Below are positions 3,908 to 16,509 of a stretch of DNA of 36,230 nucleotides, piece by piece. The stretch comes from Zoogloea sp. (GTDB lineage Bacteria; Pseudomonadota; Gammaproteobacteria; Burkholderiales; Rhodocyclaceae), in the NCBI RefSeq assembly GCF_028689785.1, contig NZ_JAQVCN010000049.1, forward strand, positions 1 to 36,230, given 5' to 3'. The notes beneath the pieces are model-generated. The model was not told the DNA's origin. It did no database searches and was given only the letters and a program-made list of their open reading frames with translations. The first letter of the stretch is position 1; every line of letters starts with the position of its first letter. Position numbers and translations under genes: made by a program.

Positions 3908-4768
3908 TCAGATGTAGCGTTTTTCGAGCACGTCCCAGTCCGGCTTGCCCACCAGGCGCTGGCGTTCTGCAAAGGGTGTGACCAGACCGCCGGACTCCAG
4001 GATTTCCCTTTCGTCCCGCAGCACGCCTAGGGCCTTCTGCATGCCCATCACCGCGCCCTGCAGTGCGGCATTGGCGTAGAGGACGATGCCGAAGCCAAGC
4101 TCGCCGAGCTCCGTGGCGTTGAAGATCGGTGTCTTGCCGCCAATGACCATGTTCATCAGCTGTGGGGTGGCGAGGCGCTGCGGGAGGGCCCGGATCTCTT
4201 CGGCCGTGGTGACCGCCTCGACGAACAGGATGTCGGCGCCGGCCTCCGCAAAAAGTTGGGCTCGCTCGACCGCCGCCTCAAAGCCGTGAACCGCCGCGGC
4301 GTCGGTGCGGGCCATGATTAGAAAGTCCGGATCACGGCGCGCATCCACGGCGGCCTTGATCTTGCTCACCGCCTCTTCGGTGGAGATCACGTCCTTGCCG
4401 GCAAAGTGCCCACAGCGTTTGGGCGCCACCTGGTCTTCGAGCTGAATGCAATCGGCTCCGGCACGCTCCAGGGTGCGCACCGTGTGATACACGTTGAGGG
4501 CGTTGCCAAAGCCGGTATCGGCATCCACCAGCAGCGGCAGCTCGACGGCATCGCGGATGCGCGCGGTATGGTCGGCAATTTCGGCCAGGCCCATGAAGCC
4601 CTGGTCGGGCATGCCGAACCACATGTTGGTCACGCCGGCACCGGTGATGTAAAGGGCTTCGAAGCCCAGGTCGGCGATGACGCGCGCCGAGAGGGCGTTG
4701 AAGGCTCCGGGGACGATGACACCACGCTTGGCGGCCACCAGTTCCTTGAGTTTCTTGCGGGAAGACAT
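3908..4768 (-). CDS. prpB: PrpB-type 2-methylisocitrate lyase (isocitrate lyase/PEP mutase family)
   Basis: By context this enzyme cleaves 2-methylisocitrate to pyruvate and succinate, the last step of the methylcitrate cycle. It has the family's TIM-barrel motifs: PGAFNALSAR, LLVDADTGFG with metal-binding acidic residues, the IQLEDQ stretch and the catalytic loop KRCGH, then IMARTDA. Several segments (PGAFNALSARV, MPDQGF, GNALNVYHTVRTLE) look more like the 2,3-dimethylmalate lyase/oxaloacetate decarboxylase branch than enteric PrpB, so substrate identity rests mainly on the operon. I chose the ATG at 4768, with AAGGA seven bases upstream; a TTG at 4786 overlapping the prpF stop is the alternative. 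It follows prpF after 14 bases. Confidence 0.8.
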   Translation of the reverse strand: MSSRKKLKELVAAKRGVIVPGAFNALSARVIADLGFEALYITGAGVTNMWFGMPDQGFMGLAEIADHTARIRDAVELPLLVDADTGFGNALNVYHTVRTLERAGADCIQLEDQVAPKRCGHFAGKDVISTEEAVSKIKAAVDARRDPDFLIMARTDAAAVHGFEAAVERAQLFAEAGADILFVEAVTTAEEIRALPQRLATPQLMNMVIGGKTPIFNATELGELGFGIVLYANAALQGAVMGMQKALGVLRDEREILESGGLVTPFAERQRLVGKPDWDVLEKRYI

Positions 4769-4782
4769 ATTGAAATCCTTGC

Positions 4783-5970
4783 TCAAAATGCGTCGCCGGG
4801 CACGCGGACCCAGCCTTCCATCAGAATCCGCGCACTGCGGCTCATGATGGCTTTGGTTACTGTCCAGGTGCCGTCCACCAGACGGGCTTCGGCGCCCACG
4901 CGCAGGGTGCCGGAGGGGTGACCGAAGCGCACTGCGGTGCGCTCGCCCCCGCCGGCCGCCAGATTGACCAGGGTGCCGGGGATGGCCGCTGCGGTGCCGA
5001 TGGCGACCGCCGCCGTGCCCATCATGGCGTGATGCAGCTTGCCCATCGACAGGGCACGCACCAGCAGGTCCACCTCGTTGGCCCTGATCGGCCTGCCCGA
5101 TGAGGCGATGTAGTCCCTAGGGGGAGCGACGAAGGCGATCTTGGGGGTGTGCTGGCGGGTGGCGGCCTCTTCGGGGGTTTTTATCAGGCCCATGCGCAGG
5201 GCGCCGGCCACGCGGATCGCCTCGAAGCGCGCTAGGGCAGCCGGGTCACCGTTGATGGCTTCGCGCAGCTCGGTGCCGGTGTAGCCGATCTCGGCGGCAT
5301 TGACGAACACAGTAGGAATGCCGGCGGAGATCATCGTTGCCTTGATGCAGCCGACGCCCGGCACCTCCAGGTCATCGACTGGTCTGCCGGTGGGAAACAG
5401 GGCCCCGCCCTCCTCCCCATCATCCGACGGTTCGACGAATTCCAGCACGATCTCGGCAGCCGGAAAACTCACACCGTCGAGTTCGAAATCACCTGTTTCC
5501 TGGACCTGCCCTGCCCTCACCGGCACGTGGGCGATGATGGTCTTGCCGATGTTGGCCTGCCAGATTTTCACCACACAGATACCGTCGTGGGGGATGCGCG
5601 CCGGATCCATCAGCCCGGCATGGAGGGCGAAGGCGCCGGCGGCGGTGGACAGGTTGCCGCAGTTGCCGCTCCAGTCCACAAAGTCCTTGTCGATGGAGAC
5701 CTGCCCATAGAGGTAGTCCACATCGTGATCCGGCCGGGTGCTGTGGGACAGGATCACGCACTTGCTGGTGCTTGAGGTGGCTCCGCCCATGCCGTCGATA
5801 TGGGTGGCATAGGGGTCGGGGCTGCCGATCACGCGTTGGAACAAGCGGTCACGGGCCTGGCCCGGTACGCGACAGGATTCCGGCAGGTCGTCCAACCGGA
5901 AGAACACCCCCTTGCTGGTGCCGCCGCGCATGTAGGTGGCAGGAATGCGGATCTGGGGAGCTGTACTCAT
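4783..5970 (-). CDS. prpF: PrpF, 2-methylaconitate cis-trans isomerase
   Basis: PrpF isomerises the 2-methylaconitate formed by AcnD so that aconitase can hydrate it to 2-methylisocitrate. The 395-residue length fits the family. The N-terminal RGGTSKGVFF signature is present, as are SKCVI and SGNCGNLSTAAGAFAL in the first half and the matching half-domain later (MMGTAAVAIGTAAA), as expected for the two-lobed diaminopimelate-epimerase-like fold. The ATG at 5968-5970 shares one base with the acnD stop (TGATG), so translation is likely coupled. AcnD and PrpF normally occur together in place of PrpD, and no prpD is seen here. Confidence 0.93.
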   Translation of the reverse strand: MSTAPQIRIPATYMRGGTSKGVFFRLDDLPESCRVPGQARDRLFQRVIGSPDPYATHIDGMGGATSSTSKCVILSHSTRPDHDVDYLYGQVSIDKDFVDWSGNCGNLSTAAGAFALHAGLMDPARIPHDGICVVKIWQANIGKTIIAHVPVRAGQVQETGDFELDGVSFPAAEIVLEFVEPSDDGEEGGALFPTGRPVDDLEVPGVGCIKATMISAGIPTVFVNAAEIGYTGTELREAINGDPAALARFEAIRVAGALRMGLIKTPEEAATRQHTPKIAFVAPPRDYIASSGRPIRANEVDLLVRALSMGKLHHAMMGTAAVAIGTAAAIPGTLVNLAAGGGERTAVRFGHPSGTLRVGAEARLVDGTWTVTKAIMSRSARILMEGWVRVPGDAF

Positions 5971-8594
5971 CAGGCGGTTTCCTTTGCGGTGGCCAGGAAG
6001 TCCTGGGCGAAACGTTGCAGGACGCCACCGGCTTCGTAGATCGAGACTTCTTCAGCCGTGTCCAGCCGGCAGGTGACCGGCAGTTCGATGGTCTGCCCGT
6101 TCCGGCGGTGGATCACCAGGGTCAGGTCGGTGCGCGGCTGGCGCACGCCGATCACATCATAGGTTTCGGTGCCATCCAGGCCCAGCGTGAGGCGGGTGGT
6201 GCCGGGTTTGAACTCCAGGGGCAGCACCCCCATGCCCACCAGATTGGTCCGGTGAATGCGTTCGAAGCCTTCGGCGACGATGGCTTCCACCCCGGCCAGG
6301 CGCACGCCCTTGGCGGCCCAGTCCCGGGACGAGCCCTGGCCATAGTCGGCTCCGGCAACGATGATCAGGGGCTGCAGACGCAGCATGTAGGTTTCAATGG
6401 CTTCCCACATGCGCATCACCTGCCCTTCCGGCTCCACCCGGGCCAGCGAGCCCGCGCGGACGCTGCCATCGGCGTTGCGCACCATCTCGTTCCTGAGGGT
6501 CGGGTTGGCAAAGGTGGCACGCTGGGCGGTCATGTGATCGCCCCGATGGGTGGCGTAGGAGTTGAAGTCTTCCTCCGGCAGGCCCATCTTCGCCAGATAT
6601 TCGCCAGCCGCCGAATCGGGAAGGATGGCGTTGGAGGGCGACAGATGGTCGGTGGTGATGTTGTCCGGCAGGATGGCCAGGGGCCGCATGCCTCGCAGGG
6701 TCCGCTCGGCAGCCAGCATGCCCTCCCAGTAGGGCGGACGGCGGATGTAGGTAGACCGGGGGCGCCAGGCGTAGAGGGGGCTGATGGCGCTGCCCTCATC
6801 CCGGCGGGGGGCGAACATCGGCTCGTAGATCTGGCGGAACTGCTCGGGCTTGACGGCGCGGGCGACGATGGCGTCGATCTCTTCGTCGGACGGCCACAGA
6901 TCCTTCAGGCGGATCTCTTTTCCGTCGACCGTGGCCAGCACGTCCTGCTCGATGTCGAAACGCACCGTGCCGGCAATAGCGTAGGCCACCACCAGGGGGG
7001 GCGAGGCCAGGAAGGCCTGCTTGGCATAGGGGTGGATGCGCCCGTCGAAGTTGCGGTTACCGGAGAGCACAGCGGTGGCGTAGAGGTCGCGCTCGATGAT
7101 CTCCTGCTGGATCGCCGGGTCCAGGGCGCCGGACATGCCGTTGCAGGTGGTGCAGGCGTAGCCGACGATGCCGAAGCCGAGCTTTTCGAGCTCGGAGAGC
7201 AAGCCCGCCTCTTCAAGATACAGCTTGGCTACCCTGGAGCCCGGTGCAAACGAAGTCTTGACCCAGGGCTTGCGGAGCAGCCCCAGGGCGTTGGCCTTGC
7301 GGGCCAGCAGGCCGGCGGCCACCACGTTGCGGGGGTTGGAGGTGTTGGTGCAGCTGGTGATCGCGGCGATGATCACTGCGCCATCGGGCAGCAGGCCCTC
7401 ATATTCTTCTGCCCGAGCCATTTCCAGCTTGACCGGGCCGGCGATGCCACGCTTCGTCAGAGCCGAGGTCGGCAGGCGCTTGTGGGGGTTGGACGGGCCG
7501 GCCATGTTGCGTACCACCGTCGTCAGGTCAAACTCCAGCACCCGCTCGTACTGCGCCGTTTCAAGGGCGTCCGCCCACAGACCGGTGGTTTTCGCGTACA
7601 CCTCGACCAGTGCGACCTGCTCGGGCGCGCGACCGGTGAGCTTCAGATAGTCGATGGTCTGGGCATCAATGTAGAACATGGCGGCGGTGGCGCCGTACTC
7701 CGGGCACATGTTGGAGATGGTGGCCCGATCACCGATGGACAGGCTGTCGGCCCCTTCGCCGAAAAACTCCACCCATGCACCGACAACCCGCTCCTGGCGC
7801 AGAAACTCGGTGAGCGCCAGCACGATGTCGGTGGCGGTGATGCCAGGCTGACGGGTGCCCGTCAGCCTGACGCCGACAATGTCGGGCAGGCGCATCATCG
7901 AGGCCCGGCCCAGCATCACGGTCTCGGCTTCGAGCCCCCCCACGCCGATGGCGATGACACCCAGGGCGTCCACATGGGGCGTATGGCTGTCAGTACCCAC
8001 ACAGGTGTCGGGAAAGGCGACCCCGTCGCGAACCTGGATCACCGGTGACATCTTCTCCAGGTTGATCTGGTGCATGATCCCGTTGCCCGCCGGGATCACA
8101 TCCACATTCTTGAAGGCGCGCTTGGTCCATTCGATGAAATGGAAGCGGTCCTCATTGCGACGATCTTCCACCGCCCGGTTCTTGGCAAAGGCGTCCGGAT
8201 CGAAGCCGCCATATTCCACTGCCAGGGAGTGATCGACGATGAGCTGGGTGGGCACCACAGGATTGACCTTGGCCGGATCGCCGCCCTGGTCGGCAATGGC
8301 GTCGCGCAGGCCGGCCAGGTCCACCAGCGCGGTCTGGCCAAGAATGTCGTGGCAGACCACGCGGGCGGGATACCAGGGGAAGTCAAGATCACGCCTGCGC
8401 TCGACGATCTGTGTCAACGCGTCGGTAAGCCGCGTCGGATCGCAGCGGCGCACCAGCTGCTCGGCCAGCACACGAGACACATAGGGCAGGCCGGCATAGG
8501 CGCCCGGCCGGATGGCATCAACTGCAGCCCGGGTGTCGAAGTAGTCGATACGGGTACCGGGGAGCGGCTTGCGAAATTGGCTGTTCATATTCAT
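5970..8594 (-). CDS. acnD: AcnD, Fe/S-dependent 2-methylcitrate dehydratase
   Basis: AcnD dehydrates 2-methylcitrate to 2-methylaconitate with a [4Fe-4S] cluster. The 874-residue protein has the aconitase A architecture: GTDSHTPHVDALGV near residue 195, ITSCTNTSNP with the first cluster cysteine, GYACTTCNGMSG with the other two, and the swivelling C-terminal domain containing GADYGQGSSRDWAAKG. It lies between prpC and prpF, which separates AcnD from housekeeping aconitase. The ATG at 8594 is preceded by AGAGG inside the end of prpC; a second ATG at 8588 is possible. The gap to prpC is 7 bases, so the genes are co-transcribed. High-GC coding bias makes long open frames on the opposite strand that I do not believe. 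Confidence 0.93.
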   Translation of the reverse strand: MNMNSQFRKPLPGTRIDYFDTRAAVDAIRPGAYAGLPYVSRVLAEQLVRRCDPTRLTDALTQIVERRRDLDFPWYPARVVCHDILGQTALVDLAGLRDAIADQGGDPAKVNPVVPTQLIVDHSLAVEYGGFDPDAFAKNRAVEDRRNEDRFHFIEWTKRAFKNVDVIPAGNGIMHQINLEKMSPVIQVRDGVAFPDTCVGTDSHTPHVDALGVIAIGVGGLEAETVMLGRASMMRLPDIVGVRLTGTRQPGITATDIVLALTEFLRQERVVGAWVEFFGEGADSLSIGDRATISNMCPEYGATAAMFYIDAQTIDYLKLTGRAPEQVALVEVYAKTTGLWADALETAQYERVLEFDLTTVVRNMAGPSNPHKRLPTSALTKRGIAGPVKLEMARAEEYEGLLPDGAVIIAAITSCTNTSNPRNVVAAGLLARKANALGLLRKPWVKTSFAPGSRVAKLYLEEAGLLSELEKLGFGIVGYACTTCNGMSGALDPAIQQEIIERDLYATAVLSGNRNFDGRIHPYAKQAFLASPPLVVAYAIAGTVRFDIEQDVLATVDGKEIRLKDLWPSDEEIDAIVARAVKPEQFRQIYEPMFAPRRDEGSAISPLYAWRPRSTYIRRPPYWEGMLAAERTLRGMRPLAILPDNITTDHLSPSNAILPDSAAGEYLAKMGLPEEDFNSYATHRGDHMTAQRATFANPTLRNEMVRNADGSVRAGSLARVEPEGQVMRMWEAIETYMLRLQPLIIVAGADYGQGSSRDWAAKGVRLAGVEAIVAEGFERIHRTNLVGMGVLPLEFKPGTTRLTLGLDGTETYDVIGVRQPRTDLTLVIHRRNGQTIELPVTCRLDTAEEVSIYEAGGVLQRFAQDFLATAKETA

Positions 8595-8601
8595 CGACCT
8601 C

Positions 8602-9756
8602 TTACTGACGCTGCTCGATGGACACGAACTGGCGGTCTTCCGGGCCGACGTAATTGGCGCTTGGGCGGATGATCTTGTTGTCGATGCGCTGCTCGATGAT
8701 ATGAGCCGCCCAGCCCGAGGTGCGGGCGATCACGAAGAGTGGCGTGAACATCGCGGTGGGCACACCCATCATGTGGTAGCTGACGGCGCTGAACCAGTCC
8801 AGATTGGGGAACATCTGCTTTACTTCCCACATCACGGCTTCCAGGCGGGCGGCGATGTCGAACATCTTGGTGGAGCCTGCGTCGACGGAGAGCTGGTGGG
8901 CCACGCCCTTGATCACCTGGTTGCGCGGGTCGGACACCGTATAGACCGGGTGTCCGAAGCCGATCACCACTTCCTTGGCGTCCACGCGGCGGCGGATGTC
9001 CGCCTCGGCCTCATCCGGGTTGTCATAGCGCTTCTGGATCTCGAAGGCCACTTCATTGGCGCCGCCGTGCTTGGGTCCGCGCAGGGCACCGATGGCGCCG
9101 GTGATGGCCGAATACATGTCCGACCCCGTCCCGGCGATGACCCGGCCGGTGAAGGTGGAGGCATTGAATTCGTGCTCGGCATAGAGGATCAGCGACGTAT
9201 GCATCGCACGCTCCCACAAGGCCGACGGTTTGCGCCCGTGCAGCAGATGCAAAAAGTGCGCGCCGATGGAGTCGTCATCGGTATCCACCTCGATGCGCTT
9301 GCCGTTGGTGGACCAGTGATACCAGTAGAGCAGCATCGAGCCGAGGGAGGCCATCAGGCGGTCGGCAATATCACGGGCACCGGGAATGTTGTGATCATCC
9401 TTCTCCGGCAGCGCACAGCCCAGCGCCGACACCCCGGTGCGCATCACGTCCATCGGATGGGCGGAAGCCGGCAGGCATTCCAGTGCTTCCTTGACGTTTG
9501 TCGGCAGTCCGCGCATGGCCTTGAGTTTGGCCTTGTAGGCCTTCAGTTCTGCCTGGGTCGGCAGCTTGCCATGCACCAGCAGGTGGGCCACCTCTTCAAA
9601 CTGACAGCGCTCGGCGATGTCGAGGATGTCGTAACCCCGGTAGTGCAGATCGTTTCCGCTCTTGCCCACGGTGCACAGGGCAGTGTTACCGGCGGTGATG
9701 CCCGAGAGGGCCACCGACTTCTTGGGCTTGAATGAGGGCTCTTGTGATGTGTTCAT
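8602..9756 (-). CDS. prpC: PrpC, 2-methylcitrate synthase
   Basis: PrpC condenses propionyl-CoA with oxaloacetate to 2-methylcitrate, the entry step of the cycle. The 384-residue length and sequence fit the short citrate-synthase family: [13 protein letters not shown] and LHYRGYDI at the N-terminus, [14 protein letters not shown] and [11 protein letters not shown] with active-site histidines, and [14 protein letters not shown] near the catalytic aspartate region. The ATG at 9756 has AGGAG upstream. It is the first gene of the minus-strand prp operon. The upstream region carries repeats shared with the divergent ScfR-type regulator gene, so this is the probable regulated promoter. Confidence 0.94.
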
Positions 9757-9930: not shown

Positions 9931-11340
9931 GTGAAGAAGACCTTCATGGGCATCCGCCTGCGACGCTTTCGTGAAGAGCGGGGCCTCACCCAGGTTGCCC
10001 TGGCCCGGGCCCTCGAACTCTCCCCCAGCTACCTCAACCAGCTTGAGCAGAACCAGCGCCCCCTCAGCGTGCCGGTGCTGCTCAAGCTCAACGCGGTGTT
10101 CGGAGTCGACGTCCAGCAGTTCTCCGAAGATGACGAAGCTCGTCTCATCGCAGACCTGCGTGAAGTCTTTCTGTCTGCCCCCGGTGATACCCCGGTGTCT
10201 ACCGCCGAGATCCGGGAGTTGGCGGCCAATATGCCTGCTGTGGCGCGCACGCTGATCGCCCTGGATCGGGGGCTGCGCGACCAGCGTGAGCGCACCGAAG
10301 CCTTGTCCATCCGGCTCGGTGACGATCGCAGCGGCACATTTCGTCCGGCCCCCATGCCCTACGAGGAGGTGCGGGATTTCTTCTACGCCCGACACAATCA
10401 CATCGACGAACTCGACCGGTTGGCCGAGTCGATCTTTGAATCCTGTGGCGATGGCAGGGATCTGGTCGCCGCCCTTACCCTGCGCCTTGAGTCCGGCCAT
10501 GGGGTGCGGGTCGCCATCCACAAGGACGACGGTGGCGCCCAGCGCAGCTACGACAGCGCCGCCCGGGTGCTGCGTCTGTCTTCGCGCCTCCAGTGGGGGC
10601 AGCAGGCCTTCCAGCTCGCCACCCAGATTGCCTTTCTCGAGGCCGGCAGCCTCATCGACGGACTGGCGAGTGAAAGCAGCTTTGCCCTGGAAGAATCCCG
10701 CGCCCTCGCCCGTATTGGCCTCGCCAGCTACTTTGCCGGTGCCCTGGTGCTGCCCTACAGCCGCTTTCTGGAGGCCGCGGAGGCGCTCCGCTACGACATC
10801 GGCCTGTTGGAACGGCAGTTTGGCGTGGGCTTCGAGACGGTCTGCCACCGCCTGTCCACGCTCCAGCGCCCTGCTGCCCGCGGTGTGCCCTTTTTCTTCA
10901 TTCGGGTGGATCGGGCCGGCAACATCTCCAAGCGGCAATCCGCCACCGATTTCCATTTCTCGCGCATCGGTGGTACCTGCCCCCTGTGGAATGTGTACGA
11001 GGCCTTCACTTCACCGGGGCGCATCTTCACCCAGATTGCCGCCATGCCCGACGGCCGCCGCTACCTGTGGATTGCCCGCACCACTTCCCGGGAAGCCGGC
11101 GCCTATGGCGCTCCGGAGAAGACCTTCTCCATTGGCCTGGGCTGCGATCTGCGCCACGCGGACCGGCTGATCTATTCCCGCGGGCTTGACCTAACCACCC
11201 CCGACGCAGCCACGCCCATCGGCGCCGGCTGCAAGGTGTGCGAGCGGCATCACTGCCCGCAGCGAGCCTTCCCGGCCGTGGGGCGAAGCCTGTCCATCGA
11301 CGCTGACCGCCGCTACTTCGAGCCCTATCGCCAGGACTGA
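9931..11340 (+). CDS. ScfR/RamB/PrpR-type regulator of propionate metabolism
   Basis: This 469-residue protein belongs to the XRE-type family of short-chain acyl-CoA responsive regulators (RamB, PrpR, PccR). It has an N-terminal helix-turn-helix (about 5-60; RGLTQVALARALELSPSYLNQLEQNQRP), a middle IrrE/ImmA-like domain without the usual zinc-protease HExxH motif (ARIGLASYFAGALVLPY), and a C-terminal domain ending in a cysteine cluster (CKVCERHHC). In mycobacterial PrpR the C-terminal region binds acyl-CoA and an iron-sulfur cluster. I chose the GTG at 9931 because GGAG lies just upstream; the frame is open to 9865 and an ATG lies at 9946. It is divergent from prpC, with shared repeats, so control of the prp operon is very likely. 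Confidence 0.85.
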   Translation: MKKTFMGIRLRRFREERGLTQVALARALELSPSYLNQLEQNQRPLSVPVLLKLNAVFGVDVQQFSEDDEARLIADLREVFLSAPGDTPVSTAEIRELAANMPAVARTLIALDRGLRDQRERTEALSIRLGDDRSGTFRPAPMPYEEVRDFFYARHNHIDELDRLAESIFESCGDGRDLVAALTLRLESGHGVRVAIHKDDGGAQRSYDSAARVLRLSSRLQWGQQAFQLATQIAFLEAGSLIDGLASESSFALEESRALARIGLASYFAGALVLPYSRFLEAAEALRYDIGLLERQFGVGFETVCHRLSTLQRPAARGVPFFFIRVDRAGNISKRQSATDFHFSRIGGTCPLWNVYEAFTSPGRIFTQIAAMPDGRRYLWIARTTSREAGAYGAPEKTFSIGLGCDLRHADRLIYSRGLDLTTPDAATPIGAGCKVCERHHCPQRAFPAVGRSLSIDADRRYFEPYRQD

Positions 11341-11351
11341 GGGCCCCCACC

Positions 11352-12479
11352 CTACTCCCAGGCCAGCGCCCCGCCCGTCTGGTACTCGGTGACCCGCGTC
11401 TCGAAGAAGTTCTTCTCCTTGCGCAGATTGGCCTGTTCGTCGAGCCAGGGCAGGACGTTCTCGGCGCCGGGGAAGGGTTCGGCGAGGCCGACCTGGCGGG
11501 CACGGCGGTTGGCCATGAAGCGGAACTGGCGGGTGTGCAGATCAGCGTTGTAGCCCAGGATGGGGTCGCGCAGGATGTAGGCGGCATAGGCGGACTCGGC
11601 GGCTTCGGCTTCGTCCCACAGGGCTTTCAGGGCGGTCGGGTCGAGGCTCAGGTTCTCTTCCTTGAGCAGTTCGCGCACCACCCGGATGCCGAAGGCGCAG
11701 TGCAGCACCTCGTCGCGCATGATGTACTGGAGCTGTTCCGCAGCGCCCTTCATGAGGCCGCGGCGCTGCAGGGCGAAAATGGGCGTGAAGCCGTTGTAGA
11801 ACCAGCAGCCTTCGAAGATCGCCGCGAAGAAGAAATAGGACAGAGCGAACTCGTGCAGGTTGTCCCGATTGGTCAGGTCGAAGTCCGGCCGCATCACCCG
11901 CTCAAGGCGCCGGTTGGCCAGGGCGATCTTGCCGTGGATGGCGGGCACAACCCGGTAGCGGTTGTAGATCTCCTGCTGGTCGAGGCCGATGCTCTCGATG
12001 CAGTGCTGGTAGGTCCACGTATGCAGGGCTTCTTCGTATACCTGGCGGGCCTGGTAGATCTGCAGCTCGGGGGCGCTCATCTTCTCCATCACCGCCAGGC
12101 CGATGTTGCGCATGGCCAGGATGTCGGAGGTGGTGAGGTAGGCCAGCACGTTCTCGAAGACGTGGCGCTCGGCGCCGCTCAGCTTGTGGTGGTAGTCGTG
12201 CACGTCCTGGGCCATGGAGATCTCCAGCGGCGTCCAGTGGTTGCGGTTGGCCTTGAGGAAGAACTCCCAGGCCCAGGGGTATTTGAAGGGCGCCAGTTGG
12301 TTGATGTCGGTCTTGCCACCAACGATGCGCTTGTCAGCGGCATTCACCGGCGCAAGGGAATGGGCAGAGGGCGGGGTGTTGTCAGTGTGGTTCGGGCTCG
12401 GGGCCGCGGGCTGACCAGACAAGGGGCTGGTAGCGGTTGGGGCGACAGTTTCCCAGTCGTCGAAACGGAAGGCGCTCAT
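11352..12479 (-). CDS. nrdB: NrdB, class Ia ribonucleotide reductase beta (R2) subunit
   Basis: R2 carries the di-iron centre and tyrosyl radical that start ribonucleotide reduction in R1. The metal ligands can be aligned: Asp119, Glu150, His153, then Glu223, Glu257 and His260, with the radical tyrosine at Tyr157 (EEALHTWTYQHC). The 375-residue product has a non-conserved Pro/Ser/Thr-rich N-terminal extension of about 45 residues before GKTDINQ. It ends in GGALAWE. The start is the ATG at 12479; the ribosome-binding site is weak. It follows the BtuF-like gene by 15 bases, so it is read from the nrdA promoter. It converges with the ScfR-type gene, with 11 bases between the stops. Confidence 0.93.
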   Translation of the reverse strand: MSAFRFDDWETVAPTATSPLSGQPAAPSPNHTDNTPPSAHSLAPVNAADKRIVGGKTDINQLAPFKYPWAWEFFLKANRNHWTPLEISMAQDVHDYHHKLSGAERHVFENVLAYLTTSDILAMRNIGLAVMEKMSAPELQIYQARQVYEEALHTWTYQHCIESIGLDQQEIYNRYRVVPAIHGKIALANRRLERVMRPDFDLTNRDNLHEFALSYFFFAAIFEGCWFYNGFTPIFALQRRGLMKGAAEQLQYIMRDEVLHCAFGIRVVRELLKEENLSLDPTALKALWDEAEAAESAYAAYILRDPILGYNADLHTRQFRFMANRRARQVGLAEPFPGAENVLPWLDEQANLRKEKNFFETRVTEYQTGGALAWE

Positions 12480-12494
12480 GTTTTTTGGTCCAGG

Positions 12495-13358
12495 TCATTC
12501 GCCATAGGTGGCGATCTTCTCTTTCAGTTCATGCAGTCCGGCGAGGAAATCGGGGCCAGGGTGCGTGAAGTGCTCGGCCGCCAGAGGCAGGATGGGAATC
12601 CCCGGTTTGGCAACGGCGGGATTGCAGGAGGTGGCGCGGCGGTCCTGTAGCCCCAGAATGAGCTCGGGCTCCCTGGCAGTGATCCACGCGGCCACATCGC
12701 CGTCCGGGGCGCCGGGCTTGAAGTTGCGGATGCTGTCGTGGTCAGCGACCACCTGGAAGCCGGCGGCGGTGATCAGTTCATACAGCGTTGTACCTTTGCC
12801 GTATGAATACGGCGCCGGACCGCAGGCCGACAGGATCAGTACCCGTCGTCCGCGACTGTCCATCTTCGCCGCTGAACGCCAGTCGGCATCGAAAGCGGCA
12901 AGCCGCTGATCGATATTGTTCACGCCGACGGCCCGGCCAACATCACGCATCATCTCCTCCATTCCGGCCAAACCGCGAAGCCCGCCCACGCGTATTGATG
13001 CTGCGCCGGGCGGGGTGGCCTTGCGGGCCACGTCTTCGGCTGTCCATTCCGAGAAGATGAGCAGATCCGGCTCCAGGTCAGCAATGGCCGGGGCGTCCGG
13101 ATCGATCACACCGCCGGTATGGGGCAGCGGCATGGAGTCGTAGCGGCTGACGCCGACGATGCAGCGCGCCAGACCCAGCCAGTCGATGACACGGCTGATA
13201 TATGGAGACTGGCTGATGATGCGCGGGCATTCGGCAGCCTGGATCAGGCCTGGCAGGCACAGCAGGCACAGGAGCAGCAGGCGAAGGTGCCGGGACGTCA
13301 CCTCACGCCATGCCGGCAGGCTGCTCATGCGGGTGCGGGCGTGCGGCGCCGGTGTCAT
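12495..13358 (-). CDS. BtuF-like periplasmic cobalamin-binding protein, between nrdA and nrdB
   Basis: The 287-residue product has a signal peptide (positively charged start, a leucine-rich core near residues 22-36, likely cleavage after IQA) and a periplasmic-binding-protein type 2 fold, beginning PRIISQSPYIS and containing IADLEPDLLIFSEW and AAWITAREPELILGLQ. This is the pattern of BtuF/FepB-like solute-binding proteins. The ATG at 13358 overlaps the nrdA stop as ATGA, so it is translationally coupled. Cobalamin is favoured as ligand because the transcript begins with a B12 riboswitch. It lacks adjacent permease and ATPase genes, so it may feed a transporter elsewhere. Another corrinoid or iron chelate remains possible. 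Confidence 0.7.
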   Translation of the reverse strand: MTPAPHARTRMSSLPAWREVTSRHLRLLLLCLLCLPGLIQAAECPRIISQSPYISRVIDWLGLARCIVGVSRYDSMPLPHTGGVIDPDAPAIADLEPDLLIFSEWTAEDVARKATPPGAASIRVGGLRGLAGMEEMMRDVGRAVGVNNIDQRLAAFDADWRSAAKMDSRGRRVLILSACGPAPYSYGKGTTLYELITAAGFQVVADHDSIRNFKPGAPDGDVAAWITAREPELILGLQDRRATSCNPAVAKPGIPILPLAAEHFTHPGPDFLAGLHELKEKIATYGE

Positions 13359-16120
13359 TGGCAGGCCTCGCAGTCCGGATTGTCGATACTGCAGAAGCGG
13401 GGCTCCTCCCCTCCCCCGCTTTCGGCGCCACCCGTCTTTTCCATCTGGCTGGCACCCAGGGTGCGCAGGTAATAGGTGGTTTTGAGCCCACGGACCCAGG
13501 CCAGCTTGTAGAGTTCGTCGAGCTTTTTGCCGGACGGCAGGGCCAGGTAGAGGTTGAGGGACTGGGCCTGGTCTATCCACTTTTGACGCCGGGCGGCGGC
13601 CTCGATCAGCCAGCGGGGGTCGATCTCGAACGCGGTGGCGTAGCGGGCCTTGAGTTCGTCGGGCACCCGCTCGATGCGCGCCAGGGAGCCATCGAAGTAC
13701 TTCAGGTCGGAGATCATCACTGGGTCCCACAGGCCGAGGGCCTTCAGATCACGGACCAGAGCCTCGTTGACCACCGTGAATTCGCCGGACAGGTTCGATT
13801 TGACGTAGAGATTCTGGTAGGCGGGCTCGATACTGGCCGATACGCCGATGATGTTGGAGATGGTGGCGGTGGGCGCAATGGCCACGCAGTTGGAGTTGCG
13901 CATGCCATGACGGGCAATGTGGGCCTTGAGGGCGCTCCAGTCGAGGCGGACATCGGGGTTGGTTTCCAGGTAGCCGCCCCGGGCCGCGCCCAGAATGGCA
14001 AGGGATTCATGGGGCAACACGCCCTTGTCCCACAGGCTGCCGCGGAAGCTGGAGTAGGCCCCACGCTCCCGTGCCAGTTCGGCCGATGCCCAGTAGGCCT
14101 GGAAACACACGGCTTCCATGCTGGCATCGGCAAACTCCACGGCGGCAGGCGATGCGTAGGGAATACCCAGCCGGTACAGGCAGTCGGCAAAGCCCATGAT
14201 CCCGAGCCCGACCGGGCGATGGCGCAGGTTGGCATTGCGAGCCTTGGGGGTGGCGTAGAAGTTGATGTCCACCACGTTGTCGAGCATGCGCATGGCGGTC
14301 TGCACCGTCCGCGCCAGCTTGGCCTGGTCGAGCTGGCCGTCCTTGAGATGGGCGAGCAGATTCACCGAACCCAGGTTGCACACGGCGGTCTCGGCATCGG
14401 AGGTGTTGAGGGTGATCTCGGTGCATAGGTTGGAGCTGTGCACCACGCCCACGTGCTGCTGGGGTGAACGCAGATTGCACGGGTCTTTGAAGGTGATCCA
14501 GGGATGCCCGGTCTCGAACAGCATGGTCAGCATCTTGCGCCACAGCTGCACGGCGGGCAGCTTCTTGAAAAGGCGGATCTCGCCGGCCTCGGCGCGGGCT
14601 TCATAGGCAAGATAGGCGGTTTCGAAGGCCTGCCCGTATTTGTCGTGCAGGTCGGGCACGTCCGACGGCGAGAAGAGCGTCCACTCCGCGTTCTCGTGGA
14701 CCCGTTTCATGAAGAGGTCGGGAATCCAGTTAGCGGTGTTCATGTCGTGGGTGCGGCGGCGCTCGTCGCCGGTGTTCTTGCGCAGCTCCAGAAACTCTTC
14801 GATGTCCAGGTGCCAGGTTTCCAGGTAAGCGCATACCGCCCCCTTACGCTTGCCGCCCTGATTGACTGCTACCGCGGTGTCGTTGACCACCTTGAGGAAG
14901 GGAATCACCCCCTGGCTCTGTCCGTTGGTGCCCTTGATGCGGCTCCCAAGGGCGCGCACCGGCGTCCAATCGTTGCCCAGGCCGCCGGCGTACTTCTGCA
15001 GCAGGGCGTTTTCCTTGATGGACTGGTAGATGCCCTCCAGGTCGTCGGCCACCGTGGTCAGGTAGCAGGAGGACAGCTGGGAATGCAGGGTGCCGCTGTT
15101 GAACAGGGTCGGCGTTGAGCACATGAAATCGAAGCTCGAGATCAGGTCGTAGAACTCGATGGCCCTGGCCTCCCGGTCGATCTCGCCGAGAGCCAGCCCC
15201 ATGGCAACACGCATGAAGAAGATCTGCGGCAGCTCGATGCGCTGGCCGTCGATGTGCAGGAAATAGCGGTCGTAGAGAGTCTGAAGCCCCAGGTAGCCGA
15301 ACAGGCGATCCCGTTCGGGGCGGATGGCGGCGGTCAGCCGGGTCAGATCGAACTCGCCCAGGCGAGGATCAAGGAGTTCGGCCTGCACTCCCCGGCGGAC
15401 AAAGGCAGGGAGATATTCCGCATAGGCAGCAGCCATTTGCCCGGCAGCCACCGGACGGCCCAGCGCTTCCTGAGTCAATCGGGCTAGCAGCAGGCGGGCG
15501 GTGGCGTAGTCATAACCTGGATCCGTCTCGATGAGCCCGCGGGAAGCCAGGATCAAAGCCTGGTTTACCTCCTCGATGGCTATCCCGTCATAGAGGTTGT
15601 GCAGGGCATGCTCAAGGATCAGGTTTGCCGAGACGGCCTCTTCCAGTCCGACGCAGGCAGCCTCACAGACAGAACGCAATTCGGCGAGATCGAGAGGGCG
15701 CTTCTCCCCGTCAACCATGACGTGCACCACCGAAGACGACACCGTTGCAGTGACCTGGGCGGCACGCTCCTCGGCGCGGCGCTCCCGGTAAAGAACGTAG
15801 GCACGGGCCACGTCGTGCTCCCCGGAACGCATCAAGGCCAATTCAACTTGATCCTGGATATCCTCGATATGCACGGTACCACCGTCGGGCAGGCGGCGAG
15901 TCAGGGAGCGGACCACGATGTCCGTGAGCCGCGCCACCACTTCACGGACGCGGGAGGAGCCGGCGCTCTGGCTCCCTTCCACGGCGAGGAAGGCCTTGGT
16001 CAGTGCCACGGAGATCTTCTCGGGATCAAAGGCGACAACGGCAGCGTTGCGGCGAATGACCTGGAATGCGACGAGCGCCGGCACAGTACCGGCATTGAGA
16101 GCTAAGACGTTCGAGGACAC
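13355..16120 (-). CDS. nrdA: NrdA, class Ia ribonucleotide reductase alpha (R1) subunit
   Basis: R1 reduces ribonucleoside diphosphates to deoxy forms. The 921-residue protein has an N-terminal ATP-cone for allosteric activity control (about 20-115), then the R1 barrel: HSQLSSCYL with the first active-site cysteine, NLCTEI with the catalytic Asn-Cys-Glu triad, AVCNLGSVNL with the partner cysteine, TTYYL with the radical-transfer pair Tyr883-Tyr884, and a C-terminal redox tail with Cys910, Cys917 and Cys920. I chose the GTG at 16120 with GGAG upstream; the frame is open further but that part runs into the riboswitch. It is the first gene of the nrdA-btuF-like-nrdB unit. Regulation is probably by B12 and NrdR. 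Confidence 0.95.
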   Translation of the reverse strand: MSSNVLALNAGTVPALVAFQVIRRNAAVVAFDPEKISVALTKAFLAVEGSQSAGSSRVREVVARLTDIVVRSLTRRLPDGGTVHIEDIQDQVELALMRSGEHDVARAYVLYRERRAEERAAQVTATVSSSVVHVMVDGEKRPLDLAELRSVCEAACVGLEEAVSANLILEHALHNLYDGIAIEEVNQALILASRGLIETDPGYDYATARLLLARLTQEALGRPVAAGQMAAAYAEYLPAFVRRGVQAELLDPRLGEFDLTRLTAAIRPERDRLFGYLGLQTLYDRYFLHIDGQRIELPQIFFMRVAMGLALGEIDREARAIEFYDLISSFDFMCSTPTLFNSGTLHSQLSSCYLTTVADDLEGIYQSIKENALLQKYAGGLGNDWTPVRALGSRIKGTNGQSQGVIPFLKVVNDTAVAVNQGGKRKGAVCAYLETWHLDIEEFLELRKNTGDERRRTHDMNTANWIPDLFMKRVHENAEWTLFSPSDVPDLHDKYGQAFETAYLAYEARAEAGEIRLFKKLPAVQLWRKMLTMLFETGHPWITFKDPCNLRSPQQHVGVVHSSNLCTEITLNTSDAETAVCNLGSVNLLAHLKDGQLDQAKLARTVQTAMRMLDNVVDINFYATPKARNANLRHRPVGLGIMGFADCLYRLGIPYASPAAVEFADASMEAVCFQAYWASAELARERGAYSSFRGSLWDKGVLPHESLAILGAARGGYLETNPDVRLDWSALKAHIARHGMRNSNCVAIAPTATISNIIGVSASIEPAYQNLYVKSNLSGEFTVVNEALVRDLKALGLWDPVMISDLKYFDGSLARIERVPDELKARYATAFEIDPRWLIEAAARRQKWIDQAQSLNLYLALPSGKKLDELYKLAWVRGLKTTYYLRTLGASQMEKTGGAESGGGEEPRFCSIDNPDCEACQ

Positions 16121-16154: not shown

Positions 16155-16279
16155 AAGGTACTTGGGCGGCGCAAAGATGCACGGGGGCGGAGATGAGTCC
16201 GAGCCGGCGTACGATCTGCTGCATTCGAGGAGGCTCGACTTGCACACCCTTCGCCAGGGACACCCCGCCCCATTGTTGC

Positions 16280-16475
16280 AAAGAAGGTTGTGGCAGGTCT
16301 CCTGGCTCTCGGGTCAACATGCACCACCGGCCTTCCCGGATGCATTCAGCCGTCCAGTGGCAAAGTGGGAGTGGTGCACTTACCGATGACAGTTGCGGGG
16401 GCAGCTCCGGGTTTCAGGTTTGAACCTGGCACCGGATTCCCTTTTAATCCCCGTGATTGCGGGAACCAACAACAA
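16280..16475 (-). ncRNA. Class I cobalamin (AdoCbl-type) riboswitch
   Basis: Read on the minus strand, the hallmark elements appear in order: AAAGGGAAtCCGGTGcc near 16440-16455, the conserved B12 box GCCCCCGCAACTG near 16390-16403, GCCACTGG near 16353-16362, GGGAAGGCCGG near 16328-16339, and the closing GAGAGCCAGGAGACCTGCC near 16293-16312. Spacing fits the family. The outer stem ends are approximate. It lies about 160-360 bases before the nrdA start. Cobalamin riboswitches usually switch genes off when B12 is present; here that would reduce the B12-independent RNR and the BtuF-like protein. Confidence 0.93.
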
Positions 16476-16479
16476 CTGA

Positions 16480-16509
16480 AGTATGCATACGATACGGATG
16501 TTTCGTCAA
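16480..16509 (-). promoter_or_regulatory. Candidate promoter of the nrd operon
   Basis: On the minus strand TTGACG (16504-16509) and CATACT (16480-16485) are separated by 18 bases. The -35 is close to consensus and the -10 is weak. The position, just upstream of the riboswitch and downstream of the NrdR-like boxes, fits. Confidence 0.4.

Follow-up and report, generated by a model that had tools for sequence, protein, structure and literature searches.

Why should a gene for a secreted solute-binding protein (SBP) lie between the two genes of a ribonucleotide reductase (RNR)? The question is raised by a 36,230-nt stretch of DNA from Zoogloea sp. (NCBI RefSeq assembly GCF_028689785.1, contig NZ_JAQVCN010000049.1), which is contig C78 of a 5.08-Mb draft genome in 128 contigs (genome label G000) and is called the window below. 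On its minus strand, a Cobalamin riboswitch is followed by nrdA, the SBP gene (here termed X), and nrdB. From sequence evidence, we consider it probable that X encodes the periplasmic corrinoid-binding subunit for the transporter BtuCD, having come from the SBP gene of btu operons and been captured by an nrdAB operon that carries a B12 riboswitch.

The nrdA-X-nrdB operon

The riboswitch aptamer (16275..16485, minus strand) lies upstream of nrdA, immediately beyond the nrdA side of the region described in a first-pass annotation of the window (11352..16120), and matches RF00174 over the entire model (positions 1–189 of 189) with 116.2 bits, against a cut-off of 31.5. The nrdA gene (13355..16120, minus strand, GTG start) encodes the alpha subunit of a class Ia RNR with ATP-cone, Ribonuc_red_lgN, and lgC domains, and its product clears the NCBIfam equivalog cut-off (NF005544, 1665 versus 965 bits), as does the beta subunit encoded by nrdB (11352..12479, minus strand; NF005550, 353 versus 309 bits), which also matches PF00268 with 207 bits. 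Between them, X (12495..13358, minus strand; 287 aa) shares an ATGA with nrdA and is separated by 15 bases from nrdB. Its translation, its family profile, and the contexts of its relatives point to a secreted class III SBP of a family found in btu operons, and to a probable corrinoid-binding subunit. The first 43 codons (13230..13358, minus strand) resemble a signal peptide, as judged by eye from a comparison of four Zoogloea genomes (G000, G643, G669, and G558); codons 1 to ∼22 are poorly conserved and may be a read-through spacer. All three features named in the first-pass annotation, an SBP gene between nrdA and nrdB, the ATGA overlap, and a B12 riboswitch, are seen in the sequence.

The annotation had further proposed that B12 scavenging would be co-expressed with the B12-independent RNR. 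This proposal stands in part: one riboswitch lies ahead of the three genes, a scan of the operon strand between positions 11000 and 17200 revealed no terminator-like site, and relatives of X occur in btu operons, but the genome also encodes a second binding protein (P0005, below) and most genomes of the genus lack X. Scans for promoters and terminators gave no more sites than did shuffled sequences (1 versus 1.3 and 3 versus 4.3, respectively).

The gene order is not unique to one strain, as it recurs in other genomes. The nrdA-nrdB junction is readable in 10 genus genomes; X occupies it in four (G000, G643, G669, and G558), and in the other six nrdA runs straight into nrdB. The synteny search that the annotation proposed also found nrdA-X-nrdB in one genome of another genus (G741). 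An nrdB match is present in 11 of 23 genus genomes, every one of them with a Cobalamin riboswitch before nrdA, and the same holds for G741. The fragmentation of the window genome into 128 contigs and the draft state of several other carriers could suggest an artefact of assembly or binning, an explanation that independent assemblies refute and whose probability we regard as negligible: four further genomes have an X that is 66–92% identical to that of the window (92% and 90% in two Zoogloea assemblies), G741 carries it on a single 4.42-Mb contig, and the flanking genes match in G643 and G669.

The ATGA overlap can be traced in the same genomes. In the window, nrdA ends in GAG-GCC-TGC-CAA-TGA, which combines a GAGG resembling a Shine–Dalgarno (SD) sequence with ATGA, and X could start at that ATG. 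The same CAATGA ends nrdA in five of the six insert-free genus genomes, where its ATG is, by eye, the start of nrdB; the overlap is therefore an inherited junction and nothing special to X. In the sixth, nrdA ends in TAATGA. It is possible that X took over the translational-coupling site at the end of the window nrdA; X may start there, at codon 1, or at the codon-11 ATG common to G000, G643, and G669. In G558 nrdA stops at a TAA, and X begins at a separate start codon beyond a spacer. A broken copy of X in that genome was considered and rejected, since the stop flagged by the search lies upstream of the likely start and the frame is open from a GTG.

Relatives of X and the B12 regulon of the genome

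X was used as a query against 369 class-level, 297 family-level, and 23 genus genomes, and a profile of its family against 395 family-level genomes. Strong matches were found in 61 family-level genomes (62 places), with four more in other families of the class. Neighbouring genes were read at each of the 66 places, with contig ends truncating some of them; outside the 66 lie weak profile matches in G601, G401, G617, and G699 and a fragment in G647. At 59 of the 66, btuB, btuC, btuD, or cobO adjoins the relative of X on the same strand, most commonly in the order btuD-X-cobO; at L043, btuD lies upstream. The remaining places are nrd-linked: nrdA-X-nrdB at five, and X after nrdB at two, one of which (G422) has the order nrdA-nrdB-X with a B12 riboswitch ahead, while in the other (G514) X follows a 120-base remnant of nrdB. 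The closest copies in btu operons are 56–60% identical to X, and two of the scanned btu operons (L080 and L086) carry a Cobalamin riboswitch. At six loci, all of group g332 (L057, L204, L205, L207, L222, and L228), X comes after btuB, and neither btuC nor btuD was matched beside it in the stretch read.

The btuB-btuC-btuD-SBP-cobO operons of the same GTDB family thus hold the same SBP family as X, mostly between btuD and cobO, whereas in Zoogloea that slot is empty and a subset of genomes has the gene in nrdAB instead. Within the genus, btuC is found in 22 of the 23 genomes, and none of the 20 readable btuD-cobO junctions contains an SBP gene; the gap is at most 151 nt in 19, and the remaining one holds, by eye, an IS110-like transposase. 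In the window genome, the only FecCD permease found is the btuC of a riboswitch-btuB-btuC-btuD-cobO operon.

That riboswitch is one of five Cobalamin riboswitches in the genome, of which the one before nrdA scores highest; two others lie in a cobalamin-biosynthesis region (with cobM above its cut-off and a CobN-like protein below its cut-offs), and the last precedes a gene that by eye resembles a TonB receptor. In G580, which has no nrdB match, a high-scoring Cobalamin riboswitch (117.7 bits; L216 8506-8705) precedes a 743-aa frame that by eye is TonB-receptor-like.

The first-pass annotation had also suggested looking for a B12-dependent nrdJ. One was found on contig C102 of the window genome (588 bits versus a cut-off of 400), and nrdJ exceeds the cut-off in 19 of the 23 genus genomes, that of the window included; of the exceptions, G643 shows nrdA only, G668 and G672 have matches in pieces, and G675 has none. 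In G673, a second Cobalamin riboswitch directly follows nrdB (L215 5855-6090), with nrdJ further on in two pieces.

These observations would fit together as follows. The ancestor of X would have been the SBP gene of a btuB-btuC-btuD-X-cobO operon, and the tree described below suggests that it was captured once between nrdA and nrdB of a class Ia RNR operon under riboswitch control. When intracellular adenosylcobalamin is low, the riboswitch would permit use of an nrdA-X-nrdB message, a direction that we infer from the class of riboswitch and from published nrd cases. The B12-independent NrdAB would then make deoxynucleotides in place of NrdJ. At the same time X would be exported, taking corrinoid delivered by BtuB and passing it to BtuCD; the latter would be produced simultaneously from a separate riboswitch operon that lacks an SBP gene.

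Ligand and role of X

Several results weigh against this proposal, the first group of which concerns the ligand. No Pfam family is matched by X alone at E ≤ 0.001; its score on PF01497 (Peripla_BP_2) is 14 bits, below the cut-off of 27.5, and the NCBIfam BtuF equivalog NF002894 gives no match at E ≤ 0.1. An alignment of X with 33 relatives (34 rows, drawn from 54 complete frames) contains three invariant cysteines; 30 of its 34 members match PF01497 at E ≤ 0.001, and only five match the BtuF model at that threshold. Against PDB, the profile of this family ranks iron and enterochelin binders best (1.4e-11 to ∼1e-10) and reaches BtuF structures later (1n4a, 5.6e-7; 1n2z, from E. coli, 5.7e-7); heme binders are matched too, and a phmmer search with X gave only weak PDB matches, the best being a heme-binding protein (0.0025). 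Thus X is probably a class III SBP, as is BtuF, but of a distinct subfamily. The description of X as BtuF-like in the first-pass annotation holds for PF01497, which most of its aligned relatives match, and not for the BtuF model. Because that model is not matched and the profile favors iron and enterochelin binders, the ligand of X is not readable from sequence. BtuFCD is reported to be hard to separate from transporters of iron, siderophores, and heme (PMC2667541, in the part available to us), and this ambiguity is the main caveat on the ligand. The naming of the btu operon itself leans largely on context and on its riboswitch, since CobO alone passes its equivalog cut-off; BtuB and BtuC fall below theirs, and BtuD is inseparable from heme ATPases.

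The ranking of PDB matches would favor a different function, in which X binds an iron complex and serves the iron supply of the di-iron protein NrdB. We think this very unlikely, as 59 of the 66 relatives are in btu contexts, the sole FecCD permease found is that of the btu operon, and the nrd operon is itself under a B12 riboswitch.

A second group of results concerns the need for X. The PF01497 search of the window genome marked five places: two on contig C128, one on C7, a weak one on C71, and X, below the cut-off. One of the proteins on C128, P0005, is a more typical BtuF, with a vitamin B12-binding protein as its best PDB match (E 2.6e-55) and an E-value of 9.9e-60 on the BtuF equivalog, where it nonetheless scores 201.9 bits against a cut-off of 234; its neighbours look, by eye, like cobQ, cbiB, and cobC. 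P0005 alone could serve BtuCD. For this reason X was not accepted as the sole BtuF of the genome, and the expectation that btuCD would be found without btuF was borne out for the btuB-btuC-btuD-cobO operon and not for the genome as a whole. BtuCD, with no SBP in its own operon, would therefore have at least two candidate partners encoded elsewhere, X and P0005.

The coexistence of the two proteins gives rise to the strongest competing explanation, which overlaps with the one that we prefer: P0005 would ordinarily serve BtuCD, and X would be a second, specialised corrinoid SBP that widens the range (to another cobamide or to cobinamide) or the affinity under shortage. We hold this to be possible and clearly the less likely account. 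It draws on the presence of P0005, which is closest to B12-binding proteins of known structure, on the divergence of X from P0005 (the X family aligns with it over nearly the whole length, with an hhalign probability of 96% and E 4.7e-9, at 19% identity), and on locus L208 of a relative, where a P0005-like match (58%) lies ∼1 kb from the X gene. On the other side, the present analysis does not separate the ligands of X and P0005, and since only L208 among 20 family loci read has a P0005-like match besides X, X is the SBP next to btuCD where read.

Returning to X as the SBP for BtuCD, its distribution also weighs in. A strong match to X is found in 4 of the 23 genus genomes, with one weak match elsewhere (G672); because 19 lack a strong match, X is dispensable within the genus. 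This patchiness, together with the six empty junctions among the 10 readable ones, would suit a chance passenger of nrdAB, kept only because it is harmless. We find such a passenger improbable. Among the five nrd-linked X genes of the nrdA-X-nrdB type, dN/dS (NG86) is 0.087–0.263, with dS of 0.77–1.27 for distant pairs, and X is therefore maintained under purifying selection; five genomes from two genera keep an open frame; and nrd linkage recurs, as nrdA-nrdB-X, in a separate clade.

The last group of unfavorable results concerns regulation. The sole promoter-like site is at chance level, and the predicted fold of the expression platform (16320-16060) is little better than that of shuffled sequences (z −1.52). 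No riboswitch was found in the 16 kb read in G514, and G643, which carries X, has no nrdJ match over the cut-off. Finally, because genes for cobalamin biosynthesis also lie behind such riboswitches in the window genome, shortage here need not equal shortage outside the cell.

Known systems, origin of the insertion, and neighboring genes

Riboswitch control of a B12-independent RNR is already published. The nrdABS operon of Streptomyces coelicolor is under a coenzyme-B12 riboswitch (PMC4991794, citing Borovok et al. 2006), and the resemblance extends to a class Ia nrdAB with an adenosylcobalamin-dependent nrdJ in the same organism; unlike in Zoogloea, its third gene is nrdS, for an AraC-like regulator, and no SBP is named in the portion of that source available to us. 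A B12-element has likewise been predicted before nrdDG, another B12-independent RNR, in Desulfovibrio vulgaris and Desulfuromonas (PMC545781, excerpt). The proposal made there is similar, in that presence of B12 would turn off the B12-independent RNR and NrdJ would be used; the differences from the Zoogloea case are the RNR, which is NrdDG, and the transport genes, which occupy B12-element loci of their own outside the RNR operon. In Cupriavidus, according to the text available of PMC2864759, a cob operon that has a cobalamin riboswitch includes btuBCDF, and further background is given in parts of PMC8123684 and PMC5962746. Among the open-licence papers listed, no title or start of an abstract mentions an SBP gene inside an nrdAB operon, which is weak evidence of absence.

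In the published cases found, as far as the portions available of those sources go, isozyme and uptake genes belong to one regulon but are kept in separate operons. In Zoogloea, by contrast, a likely transport subunit has moved into the isozyme operon, and between btuD and cobO the transport operon has no SBP gene. Confirmation of the ligand would make this a clear example of gene exchange among the operons of a riboswitch regulon. One could then test whether corrinoid salvage in Zoogloea, a genus common in activated sludge, is limited by a single SBP. The locus also serves as a warning to seek btuF outside btu operons.

The origin of the insertion was examined in a 64-row tree of X. All five X genes of the nrdA-X-nrdB arrangement cluster in a single clade (100/99), which joins with five btu-operon genes of other genera in a larger clade (100/99). 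The two genes that follow nrdB (G422 and G514) are placed far from these, in a clade shared with a btu-linked gene, and two further changes are required to account for them; by parsimony, nrd linkage of X therefore arose at least twice. In G741, a second copy (88%) of a 40-base stretch containing the end of nrdA lies between nrdA and X (L224 4166-4309, direct repeat, copies 104 bases apart). This repeat is a possible footprint of the insertion and suggests that the tail of a donor nrdA came in together with X.

The operon did not necessarily move as a unit. Compared with the insert-free G462, G558 is 95.0% identical in nrdB (over the aligned part), 81.1% in nrdA, 90.8% in btuC, and 89.9% in btuD. 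The nrdA tree places G558 with the inserted genomes (100/98), whereas the nrdB tree unites it with G462 and G671 (93/92, not starred). Three of the inserted genomes have nrdA rows that cover only 41% of columns, and both nrd trees keep several open forks. This conflict and the contrast in identity suggest recombination that moved nrdA and X separately from nrdB, a mixed history that is likely but not proven. Transfer of the whole operon was not kept as a full account, since nrdA and nrdB of G558 differ in affinity.

The genes around the operon in the window include others of B12-independent metabolism. On the same strand lie metE (106-2106) and methylcitrate genes (prpB-like, prpF, acnD, and prpC, within 3908-9756); metE encodes the B12-independent methionine synthase, and the methylcitrate genes a B12-independent route for propionate. 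The window metE frame matches ∼640 of ∼750 model positions and ends 105 bases from the contig end, so that it looks cut short. With some hesitation, we raise the idea that the Zoogloea family has in nrdA-X-nrdB a transferable cassette for B12 shortage: the SBP gene would have left the transport operon for an operon under the same riboswitch and spread with pieces of nrdA by recombination, and its place beside the methylcitrate cycle and metE would make the region an emerging B12-shortage island.

In all four inserted Zoogloea genomes, nrdA-X-nrdB adjoins ScfRs and prpC. No ScfRs or prpC match was found in the stretches read around nrdAB in four genomes with no insert (G462, G671, G655, and G673). 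In G655, the riboswitch and nrdAB are preceded, on their own strand, by a 762-aa metE that is 55% identical to that of the window (L219 9732-12924), so that metE adjoins nrdAB in a second context.

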